A stretch of 46,177 nucleotides of DNA from Campylobacteraceae bacterium (GTDB lineage: Bacteria; Campylobacterota; Campylobacteria; Campylobacterales; Sulfurospirillaceae): the NCBI GenBank assembly GCA_026988975.1, contig JALSKH010000162.1:1-46177 (forward strand). Direction: 5' to 3'. Shown here one piece after another: positions 8,763 through 42,790 of this stretch. The notes under the pieces are model-generated. The model saw only the letters and a program-made list of their open reading frames with translations. It did not search any database and was not told where the DNA came from. A program made the position numbers and the translations under genes. Within the stretch, counting starts at the first letter, position 1, and each line of letters opens with the position of its first letter.

Positions 8763-8955
8763 TGTATCTGAGTGAAGCGATAGCGTTTTATGAGGGTCCA
8801 ACATATTGTTATTTGTGGAACGGGTGTTTTGTTGGTGCGTCTGCATTTTTGTTTGAGTCTCTTGCGAGATTAGAATCTGCAGCCTAAAGACAAAATTAGT
8901 TCTACATCGTTGGCTTGATTAGGGCCAAAGAATAAACGAACGCCCACTTGGGTTA
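8763..8955 (+). ncRNA. ssrS: Probable 6S RNA
   Basis: This 190-nt gap holds no convincing gene but folds as a long interrupted hairpin, the layout of 6S RNA, which mimics an open promoter and sequesters housekeeping RNA polymerase. Visible pairing from outside in: AGTG (8771-8774) with CACT (8945-8948), GCGTT (8783-8787) with AACGC (8938-8942), an open central region, TTTTGT (8827-8832) with ACAAAA (8890-8895), CTGCA (8841-8845) with TGCAG (8878-8882), and an apical TCTC-TTGC-GAGA hairpin (8858-8869). 'GTTGGTGCGTCTGCA...GCAGCCTAAAGAC' resembles the E. coli 'GTTGGTGAGCATGC...GAAGCCTTAAAAC' part. It sits before purD, and 6S genes often neighbour purine or one-carbon genes. Promoter and terminator bracket it. 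Identification is from structure and context only. Confidence 0.7.
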
Positions 8956-16128: not shown

Positions 16129-16434
16129 ATGAAAAAAGTTGTATTTTTATTGATTGCATTTGCAGGATTTGCATTTGCAGGTGAGGGCGATAGTGTGATT
16201 AAGGCTTACTCAGTAGTTGCTGCTGGTTTGGGTCTTGGACTAGCTGCTCTTGGTGGAGCTATTGGTATGGGACACACTGCAGCTGCTACTATAGCGGGAA
16301 CTGCTAGAAACCCAGGTCTTGGTGGAAAGCTAATGACAACAATGTTTATCGCTCTAGCGATGATCGAAGCACAAGTTATCTATGCACTTGTTATCGCGTT
16401 GATAGCACTATATGCAAATCCTTTCTTAGGATAA
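16129..16434 (+). CDS. atpE: ATP synthase F0 subunit c
   Basis: Proteolipid of the ATP synthase rotor. The 101-residue product has an N-terminal signal-like segment (1-17, ending AFA) then the two-helix hairpin: helix one with the glycine-rich 'GLGLGLAALGGAIGMGHT' (33-50), polar loop 'ARNPGLGG' (59-66) and helix two with the ion-binding carboxylate E80 in 'ALAMIEAQVIYALV'. No sodium-site residue follows the Glu (Ala81), pointing to a proton ring. Longer c-subunits with a signal are usual in Campylobacterota. Start ATG 16129 follows AAGGAG; an upstream in-frame GTG at 16081 would add an unlikely leader. It stands alone, as often in this phylum. Confidence 0.95.
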   Translation: MKKVVFLLIAFAGFAFAGEGDSVIKAYSVVAAGLGLGLAALGGAIGMGHTAAATIAGTARNPGLGGKLMTTMFIALAMIEAQVIYALVIALIALYANPFLG

Positions 16435-16440
16435 ACTTTA

Positions 16441-16712
16441 TAGCTGACCTTACGCACTATAAACACACCTAGGTGATAAAAGTTGCACTCTAATGCAAGG
16501 AAGTATAGCAAAATTGTAGTTAAACTACCATGAAGCTATGACTCCACAGCAGTAGGGTGCAAATTTTATCATCCGTAGGACAGAATGATAAAGCACCATC
16601 TGCTTCGTTAGTTCACTTTCACCGTAGCTACGGCTACGCTAAAAGCAAACTGCCTCGCATATGATGCTTTCTCATTCTGCCTAGGTGTGTTTATAGTGCG
16701 TAAGGTCAGCTA
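16441..16712. repeat. Multi-hairpin element, copy 1
   Basis: A 272-bp intergenic structure. The outermost arms are a perfect 33-bp inverted repeat (16441-16473 and 16680-16712). Between them lie two further imperfect hairpins: arm A (about 16474-16571, closed by TGATAAAA-TTGCAC against its complement with few mismatches) and arm B (about 16581-16679, closed by CAGAATGA-AAAGCA against TGCTTT-TCATTCTG). The whole would fold as a three-way junction in single-stranded DNA or RNA. Arm B contains a 57-bp core (16602-16658) shared, reverse-complemented, with copy 2 at 42569-42625. The core centre is CGTAGC-TACG-GCTACG (16623-16638). No protein is encoded. Confidence 0.85.
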
Positions 16713-16715
16713 ATA

Positions 16716-16735
16716 GTAGAGGCTTTTGCCTCTAC
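16716..16735 (+). other. Hairpin before tRNA-Leu
   Basis: Perfect 8-bp stem GTAGAGGC / GCCTCTAC with a TTTT loop. It lacks a T-run. It may be the original end structure of the atpE transcript, now separated from atpE by the inserted element. Confidence 0.45.
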
Positions 16736-16751
16736 AACTTCAAACACACAC

Positions 16752-16913: not shown

Positions 16914-17336
16914 TTAGCCTTGATTTTGTATATATTTTCGTATTGTCTCAGGACTAGCCTCTCCAACACTACATACAAAATATCCATCAGTCCAGAATGT
17001 TTTTTCTTTCCAAAAGTGTTTTTGTAGAAATTGTTGATATAATTTCCAAATTCTTTTAGTGGATATAGATTTGATACGATTAACAATAGAAGATATAGAA
17101 ACTCTTGGAATGTATTGTATCATCAAGTGAATATGGTCTATATCTGTTTCCATCTCAATTATATCAAAATCACTATTAATCTCTATATCTCTAATAATAC
17201 TCTTGATATTTGTTTTTAACCCTTGTTTTAGCAACTTTTTTCTATATTTGCATACTAATATTAAATGCACTTTCAAATTGTGTTTAGCCCTATTTGTGGT
17301 CTGATAACCATATAGTTTTTTATTGTTTTTCTTCAT
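16914..17336 (-). CDS. tnpA: IS200/IS605 transposase TnpA (HUH, Y1)
   Basis: A 140-residue single-strand DNA transposase. The HUH motif is 'DHIHLMI' (H68, H70) and the catalytic tyrosine lies near the end in 'TIRKYIQNQG' (Y135). 'FWTDGYFVCSVG' is the usual family block. All catalytic residues are present, so the enzyme looks intact and of normal length. It is transcribed away from tnpB, with 57 bp between the two starts containing TATAAT-like boxes for both directions. Confidence 0.93.
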   Translation of the reverse strand: MKKNNKKLYGYQTTNRAKHNLKVHLILVCKYRKKLLKQGLKTNIKSIIRDIEINSDFDIIEMETDIDHIHLMIQYIPRVSISSIVNRIKSISTKRIWKLYQQFLQKHFWKEKTFWTDGYFVCSVGEASPETIRKYIQNQG

Positions 17337-17393
17337 TGCTTTACTTTTTATAATATTGTAGTATAATTACATAAAGTTATAAAGGAGTTAAGA

Positions 17394-18455
17394 GTGCTAA
17401 AGGCATATAAATATAGAATTTATCCAACTAAAACACAAATAACCCTTATCGAAAAACACTTTGGTTCTACTAGATTTCTATATAATTATTTTTTAGATTA
17501 TAGACAAAAAGAATACGCTAAAGGCAATAAAAAAGTTAATTATAATTCCACTCAATCAATGCTTACAAAATTAAAAAAACAAGATGAATATATATGGCTT
17601 AATGAGTGTGGAAGTCAAGCTTTGCAGATGTCACTTAGAGGCTTAGACACAGCATTTCAAAGATTTTTCAAGAGACAAGGTGGCTATCCTAAATTTCATT
17701 CAAAAAGAAACACTCATCAAAGTTTTACCGTTCCTCAAAACATAAAAGTTGCTAACAATAGAGTATATTTCCCAAAGTTCGTAAAAGATGGTATAAAAAC
17801 CAAAGTGCATAGAGATATACCAGATAATGCAACACTAAAACAAGCAACTATATCACGACAAAATAACCAATATTTTATATCTATACTTATTGATGATGGC
17901 ATAGACATACCAAAACCCATCAAAGCAAAAAATGCAGTAGGTATAGATATGGGATTAACTGATTTACTAATCACAAGTGATGGTGTAAAATATGAAAACA
18001 AAAAATATACTATAAAATCTCAAAAAAAACTAAAAAAACTTCAAAAAAGATTATCTAAAAAACAACATAGCAGAAAAAAAGGAGACACAACACCTCAAAG
18101 CAGTAACTATAAAAAACAAAAAGCTAAAATTCAAAAACTTCATACCAAAATTACAAACCAAAGAAAAGACTATCTGCATAAAATATCAAACGAGATAACC
18201 AATCAATATGATATTATATGTTTAGAAACTCTACATGTAAAGGGTATGATAAAAAATAGAAAACTAGCCAAAGGCATAGCAGATGTAGCATGGAGTGAGT
18301 TTATGAGGCAACTTGAATACAAATCAAGTTGGCTAGGTAAAACAGTTATCAAGATAGACAAATGGTTTCCTAGTTCTCAAATATGTGCAGTATGCGGAAG
18401 CAATACAGGTAAAAAACCATTACATGTAAAAAATATAAAATACTTAAAAAATTAA
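17394..18455 (+). pseudogene. tnpB: TnpB RNA-guided nuclease, C-terminally truncated
   Basis: 353 residues of a TnpB (OrfB) protein. The N-terminal WED/REC part is complete ('MLKAYKYRIYPTKTQ', 'GYPKFHSKR'). RuvC-I aspartate is D185 ('GIDMGLTD') and RuvC-II glutamate is E278 ('CLETLHVKGM'). The first zinc-knuckle pair is present (C331, C334), but after 'GKKPLHV' the expected second CxxC and the RuvC-III 'HDRDxNA' are replaced by 'KNIKYLKN' and a stop. The nuclease should therefore be inactive. GTG start has AAGGAG 6-7 nt upstream. A repurposed DNA-binding role is conceivable, but the linked intact tnpA suggests simple recent decay. Confidence 0.85.
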
Positions 18456-42496: not shown

Positions 42497-42516
42497 AAAA
42501 GCTCCAAAAAATTTAC

Positions 42517-42787
42517 TAGATTTCTTATATAACCCCTTGCATTCTCAGTAACTCATAGATATGTCTGAGCGAGGCAGTTTATCTCTTGCGTAGCCAAAGC
42601 TACGGATGAGATGAACTAACGAAGCCTCAGGCTTATCTATGAGTTACCCGTAGGGAGAAACTAGAAGTAGCAATCTTGCACAAAACTTTTCATCGCCATA
42701 GCTTTGGCTATGACTCAAAAAAAGGTTTTGCACAATCTTACCACTTCTAGTTTCTCTGAGGCTACAAGGGGTTATGTAAGAAATCTA
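42517..42787. repeat. Multi-hairpin element, copy 2
   Basis: A 271-bp structure almost the same length as copy 1 but in the opposite orientation. Outer arms 42517-42548 and 42756-42787 match at 28 of 32 positions. Arm B (42549-42646) closes with TAACTCATAGATA / TATCTATGAGTTA and contains the 57-bp core 42569-42625 with centre CGTAGC-CAAA-GCTACG (42589-42604). A linker CCGTAGG leads to arm A (about 42653-42755), closed by GAGAAACTAGAAGT and its complement and centred on CCATAGC-TTT-GGCTATG. The outer stem and arm bases are unrelated to those of copy 1. It fills most of the divergent region between emrA and the TetR gene. Confidence 0.85.
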
Positions 42788-42790
42788 AAT

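Follow-up and report, generated by a model that had tools for sequence, protein, structure and literature searches.

The 46,177-nt stretch of Campylobacteraceae DNA that was analysed (hereafter the window) contains two 57-nt cores with common ends, at 42569–42625 and, on the minus strand, at 16602–16658. They raise the question of what keeps two such sites self-complementary when the sequence around the cores differs completely. A preliminary description, made from the letters alone, had located these cores and had suggested selection on a DNA or RNA fold, or inverted copying of flanking DNA, with a HUH transposase as a speculative partner. The cores do lie at these positions, and the facing segments that differ between them remain pairable within each copy. 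Our analysis indicates that the two sites probably represent one family of non-autonomous, MITE-like transposons of ~265–270 bp, in which the fold is kept, the ends are exchanged and the hairpin may work as RNA.

Architecture of the two copies in the window

The region 42515–42790 folds with a z score of −12.0 and the minus strand of 16430–16740 with a z score of −16.4 relative to shuffled sequence, and no shuffle was as good in either case. Both copies fold into a four-way junction whose component sizes are equal although the stem sequences differ. The layout consists of a terminal inverted repeat (TIR) that forms an outer stem of ~31 bp, an arm of ~100 nt that harbors the core (arm 1, ~99–100 nt in the two copies), a CC-NNN-GG mini-hairpin and a second arm of ~100 nt (arm 2, ~98–102 nt). 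The features of copy 2 are as follows.

42518–42786, plus strand: complete element, 269 bp, TIR class A (AGATTTCTTATATAACCCC...GGGGTTATGTAAGAAATCT), from the TIR pair and the fold
42518–42547, plus strand: left TIR, the 5' strand of the outer stem (TIR pair, fold)
42548–42647, plus strand: arm 1, a 100-nt hairpin with the core (fold)
42569–42625, plus strand: core hairpin with a GAGGC / TAACGAAG internal loop, a covarying stem and a TAGC-CAAA-GCTA tip (82.8 bits with covariance model R1, below)
42648–42654, no strand assigned: junction mini-hairpin CCGTAGG (fold)
42655–42756, minus strand: arm 2, a 102-nt hairpin (fold; the strand accords with the mismatch types seen in its class)
42757–42786, plus strand: right TIR, the 3' strand of the outer stem (TIR pair, fold)

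Copy 1 is located between atpE and a tRNA-Leu gene.

16444–16709, minus strand: complete element, 266 bp, TIR class B (CTGACCTTACGCACTATAAACACACCTAGG...), from the TIR pair and the fold
16680–16709, minus strand: TIR, the 5' strand of the outer stem (TIR, fold)
16581–16679, minus strand: arm 1, a 99-nt hairpin with the core (fold)
16602–16658, minus strand: core hairpin (80.6 bits with model R1)
16572–16580, no strand assigned: junction mini-hairpin TCCTACGGA (fold)
16474–16571, plus strand: arm 2, a 98-nt hairpin with a diverged core motif on the opposite strand
16444–16473, minus strand: TIR, the 3' strand of the outer stem (TIR, fold)

The ends of copy 2 are of the AGACTTCTTGCATAACCCC type (class A), and those of copy 1 are CTGACCTTACGCACTATAA (class B). 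The arms and outer stems had been described as non-homologous; their sequences do differ and are self-complementary within each copy, but they share the same four-part geometry and are best seen as one architecture whose sequence has turned over. Likewise, the flanks of the cores are self-complementary but not arbitrary, as each 57-bp core forms the tip region within a complete element of ~270 bp. In class-A elements, arm 2 has its own conserved CAATCTTGCACAAAA / TTTTGCACAATCTTACC where the AGGC/AACGAA motif would stand (for example, at 42666–42745 of the window).

Distribution in the Campylobacterales

The preliminary description had proposed a scan with a covariance model of the core. Such a model, R1, was built from twelve cores and run across Campylobacterales genomes with a threshold of E ≤ 1e-3. 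It recovered many copies, with matches in 63 of 299 genomes and 25 of 81 genera; the 236 genomes of the same order that have no match serve as an internal control. Counts per genome refer to the best candidates scored, and genomes at 18 carry at least 18. The draft genome from which the window comes (G000, 243 contigs) contains 21 cores and 57 class-B terminal repeats, which are mostly paired, bound 266 bp and lie at unrelated intergenic sites. The exact core pattern is also found in Campylobacteraceae bacterium S145, Campylobacteraceae bacterium 131-447, Sulfurospirillum sp. 355-202 and S. arcachonense SZUA-1415. Exact-pattern matches on a Prevotella contig and a viral contig (L080 and L090) have no core-like fold and are due to chance, and a plasmid or phage origin was set aside since copy 2 has no similar DNA in the plasmid or phage collection.

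The geometry of the window copies recurs in 41 dissimilar elements, with an outer stem of ~31–38 bp (flank included), an arm 1 of mostly 96–102 nt, a spacer that is mostly CC-NNN-GG and is found in elements across the order, and an arm 2 of mostly 98–102 nt. Element length is mostly 262–270 bp, and the arm lengths are constant across about ten families. Arm 2 folds differently in four elements (L205, L206, L208 and L218), while in five others (L123, L124, L199, L200 and L202) the full core motif is present on both arms, inverted and ~108 nt apart.

Several related repeats were also observed. Genus g3 has shorter, ~164-bp class-A elements that form one long hairpin (L096, L098, L103, L108 and L132), with the tip GAGTCATAGC-NNNN-GCTATGGCGAT, which is also found in some cloverleaf arms. 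L136, L137 and L138 (genomes G001 and G003) contain a short class-B-ended repeat with an CTCGAAAAGTCCTACTTTTCG interior and no core. At L223 (G076:C39) a class-D element adjoins a reading frame that encodes YADDFVLF, a motif typical of reverse transcriptases.

Covariation and strand-specific conservation of the fold

In an alignment of 47 cores, which was fitted to the model structure and hence leans towards it, 17 of the 20 pairs change on both sides, and 94.1% are paired compared to 71.0% when shuffled and at most 43% once the partner is slid out of register. An ungapped alignment of twelve cores that was not fitted to structure gives the same picture. Full-length MAFFT alignments extend it to the rest of the element, with changes on both sides in 74 of 110 pairs among 20 class-A elements and in 74 of 100 pairs among 18 class-B elements. 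Nearly invariant are AGG(C) and AACGAA, which lie in an internal loop that is asymmetric, and the TAGC/GCTA of the tip. The core combines covarying stems with conserved loops, as structured RNAs do. Conservation of the fold in the element interior is well supported.

To assign the fold to a strand, we self-aligned the arm halves of the 41 dissimilar elements with an equal penalty for every mismatch, which introduces no folding-program bias; the premise is that a folded strand under selection should show more G.T than A.C. At the base of arm 1 we counted 58 G.T against 8 A.C, and in the whole arm 168 A.G against 5 C.T. The skew is opposite in arm 2, with 17 G.T against 69 A.C at the base and 18 A.G against 132 C.T in the whole arm. 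The outer stem shows little bias (43 versus 25, p = 0.04), as expected for double-stranded transposase sites. The opposite skews imply that selection acts on the top strand of arm 1 and on the bottom strand of arm 2, and the data support well that each is held as a folded single strand there. The element is therefore a dyad in which, reading inward from either end, the proper hairpin is the first arm. Together, the covarying stems and the strand-specific mismatch bias bear out the earlier suggestion of selection on a fold.

These data also bear on a simpler explanation, that the elements are plain IS-derived MITEs whose stems are matched by quasipalindrome correction during replication, with no selection on the fold. 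Template switching in replication can create, repair and maintain matched hairpin stems (PMC8794818), and one element of the window's genome (L036, G000:C60) carries a local inverted duplication, AATGAGAAAAGCTCATT, at the base of arm 1, the footprint expected of a template-switch mutation. There are also many deletion derivatives at the stem base. Collapsed copies, which are palindromes of ~40–80 bp made of two joined outer stems, are found in several genomes (L070, L129, L130, L133, L141, L149, L150, L156, L161 and L169), and their frequency is expected from slippage at the hairpin base. However, this explanation predicts no strand bias, whereas the G.T/A.C and A.G/C.T counts show a strong skew whose sense is reversed between arm 1 and arm 2, and it leaves the invariant unpaired AGGC/AACGAA, the conserved tips and the constant arm lengths unexplained. 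We regard it as quite improbable. Since template switching alone predicts neither the strand bias nor the conserved loops, selection on the fold is needed in addition.

Ends, target duplications and transposases

To detect target duplications, the flanks were compared at every duplication length, with shuffled pairings as the control. For class A the excess is greatest at 3 bp, where 42 of 64 are perfect and 19.7 would be expected (z = 7.3). For class B it is greatest at 7 bp, where 29 of 78 have no more than one mismatch and 8.9 would be expected (z = 8.0), with weaker shoulders at 6 and 8 bp. The duplications hold for the classes; those of the window copies themselves are poor, with five of seven positions matching in copy 1 and none clear in copy 2. 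Two-base covariation in the flanks of class B had appeared as a candidate sign of inverted copying of the flanks, and 7-bp duplications in TTNNNAA-like targets account for most of it.

The window's genome contains a 909-bp IS5-family IS with a class-A TIR, and two overlapping frames encode its HTH_Tnp_4 and DDE_Tnp_4 domains. This IS occupies L092 1501–2409 (G000:C63), and the split of its transposase suggests a programmed frameshift or decay. Class-A copies have ~16–22 bp of TIR in common with the IS5-family IS of the same genome. Multi-copy ISs of the class-A kind in G011 and G024 have similar ends (AGACATCTTGCAAAACT) with AGT, AAT or ATT on both sides, that is, A-N-T duplications. The core is absent from the class-A ISs. 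By ISfinder rules, the class-A ends presumably belong to the ISL2-like subgroup. Copy 2 thus has the TIR of an IS5-family IS and, at class level, its 3-bp A-N-T duplication. Copy 1 departs from the 3-bp duplication of IS5-family (ISL2-like) MITEs, as the class-B excess lies at 7 bp. The loci examined, including complete genomes with about 11 copies, yielded no IS with class-B ends; candidates in G074, G039, G196 and G021 were single TIR matches beside ordinary genes with no transposase and were rejected.

The elements are short and non-coding, with TIR stems of ~31 bp and target duplications at class level, the properties of MITEs. The TIRs and duplications indicate mobilisation by transposases acting in trans, and mobility of the family is well supported. 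Given their different duplications, of 3 and 7 bp, classes A and B very probably need different transposases.

Probable exchange of ends on a conserved interior

By sequence, the TIRs fall into at least six classes, A (22 elements), B (28), C (5), D (9), E (4) and F (2). A tree of the 70 cores requires at least 14 changes of TIR class, where five would suffice if each class were one clade, and class A as a single clade is rejected on it (p-AU 0.013). In one genome, G304, the cores of L222 (class A) and L274 (class B) group with 100/94 support, and the core of copy 2 (class A) is nested in a supported group of 12 with class-B cores that include copy 1. The tree is built on 57 columns, its paired sites are not independent and many of its forks are poorly resolved. 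Within these limits it supports one conserved interior that appears to carry exchangeable, unrelated ends.

Such an exchange could begin when one side of the element captures a transposon end. Foldback copying, by template switching across the junction, would then write the captured end, inverted, at the other side, and the same process may help to keep the stems matched. Inverted copying of this kind is a plausible, indirectly supported source both of the matched stem changes and of the matched new ends.

The HUH transposase question

A HUH (Y1) transposase that recognises the hairpins as single-stranded DNA, in a REPIN-like system, had been proposed as the partner of the elements. The layout of two inverted hairpins per element is indeed REPIN-like (PMC3116915). 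Y1_Tnp genes are found in 42 of the 63 carrier genomes and in 96 of the 236 non-carriers (odds ratio 2.9, p = 3e-4), a comparison that does not control for relatedness and that may reflect it. Moreover, an IS200/IS605-type tnpA (Y1_Tnp), with tnpB/OrfB in divergent orientation, occupies window positions 16914–18455, ~200 bp away from copy 1; the genome has only one other Y1 gene. RAYT-like Y1 transposases of ~260 residues are common in the order, often one per genome (L356–L375).

Other data speak against such a partner. As 21 of the 63 carriers have no Y1_Tnp gene, including the multi-copy genomes G021, G052, G069 and G264, the enzyme is not required. None of 20 RAYT-like Y1 loci in carrier genomes has a core within about 2.5 kb. 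The 3- or 7-bp target duplications are typical of DDE rather than HUH enzymes, and the ends of one class match an IS5-family IS. The GTAG/CGTC tag is absent, and the foot of the core is instead AGGC / AACGAA. This proposal is largely refuted, and we consider it very improbable. As far as the data show, the tnpA beside copy 1 belongs to an ordinary IS200/IS605 element and its proximity is a coincidence.

Possible roles of the hairpin

We infer a role for the hairpin as either RNA or single-stranded DNA. As RNA, which we favor as the weaker part of our proposal, it would act in read-through transcripts that run into the element from one side or the other, and the hairpin may bind a host RNA-binding or RNA-processing factor. 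A function available from either side would explain the orientation-independent layout. No ORF spans any of 52 elements, with ORFs called by a simple length rule rather than by annotation. The neighboring genes are divergent at 14 elements, convergent at 7, with the core at 9 and against it at 13, which gives no consistent orientation; a terminator or regulatory placement was discarded because these 52 elements show no bias of orientation or location.

The main alternative keeps the same family and changes only the folded molecule, which would be DNA. Hairpins extruded on the lagging-strand template during replication would recruit a host replication or repair factor and thereby raise transposition or survival. 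The strand assignment, 5' to 3' inward from each end, gives a dyad suited to a DNA element, the elements are all intergenic with no orientation bias, and, as the collapsed copies show, the palindrome is subject to change during replication. The tolerance of G.T and G.A is compatible with both molecules. The conservation of internal loops with G.A and G.T mismatches is equally seen in structured RNAs. We judge the DNA alternative rather unlikely.

A special case of the RNA role is a cis-regulatory or self-cleaving, ribozyme-like RNA that is spread by transposons, with one 5'-arm copy per strand. The two purine-rich internal loops, the few invariant unpaired bases and the covarying stems are typical of small structured RNAs, and the layout yields a functional hairpin in either direction of transcription. 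Against this, the elements have no Rfam match and no placement bias relative to genes, and we hold the special case to be improbable.

Relation to known elements

No Rfam family exceeds its gathering score for the elements; the weak matches were mostly to eukaryotic microRNA models, which fit any long hairpin, and were dismissed. The sole Rfam match in the window is a purD RNA motif (RF01069) at 8824–8953. Bacterial MITEs that have been reviewed are end-pairing stem-loops, with the exception of the two-armed CIR elements of Caulobacter and Brucella (PMC2229807). The latter resemble the elements described here in their conserved secondary structure and in having two hairpin arms and a linker, but have a GANTC motif and no established TIR, belong to an unrelated lineage and are described without exchange of ends (PMC2229807). 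Correia/NEMIS, ERIC and RUP are likewise short non-coding elements with TIRs, whose transcripts fold and may be processed by RNase (PMC2229807); however, they are described as armless end-to-end stem-loops, and exchange of ends between families is not known for them. REPINs and the REP-RAYT system also have two inverted, strand-specific hairpins per unit with compensatory changes and are non-autonomous (PMC3116915), whereas our elements are ~270 bp long with TIRs, target duplications and 100-nt arms, have no GTAG/CGTC tag and are not linked to RAYT genes. GTAG and CGTC REPs have been reported in Sulfurovum (PMC3733652); at 20–40 bp these are a different type of repeat from the cloverleaf elements.

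The closest relatives in their ends are IS5-family (ISL2-like) MITEs, with which class-A copies share the IS5-family TIR and the 3-bp duplications. Unlike them, the elements have a conserved cloverleaf as interior rather than IS sequence, and at least five further TIR classes, including one that duplicates 7 bp, are found on this interior. A search of the open-licence literature returned no comparable MITE or palindromic family for Campylobacterota, and a description elsewhere is possible. The suggestion of an undescribed family therefore holds, and as far as searched the elements form a previously undescribed, widespread family of structured non-autonomous transposons in Campylobacterales.

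MITEs are usually viewed as deletion derivatives of one IS, the interior of which is irrelevant. Here this picture is reversed, with an interior structure that is conserved in 25 or more genera and ends that change. It makes testable the switching of transposases by a non-coding element, the building of new inverted ends by template switching and the use of a strand-specific hairpin to a DNA transposon. In addition, the R1 alignment provides a model with which to annotate a repeat family in otherwise unexplained intergenic regions of Campylobacterales. More tentatively, and as a possibility that we place short of probable, the two-hairpin core may be a modular selfish element that works in either orientation, persists on the time scale of the order by serially capturing the ends of unrelated transposons and has its identity in the fold. 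If so, it would represent a class of mobile element that is defined by structure and is parasitic on many transposases in turn.
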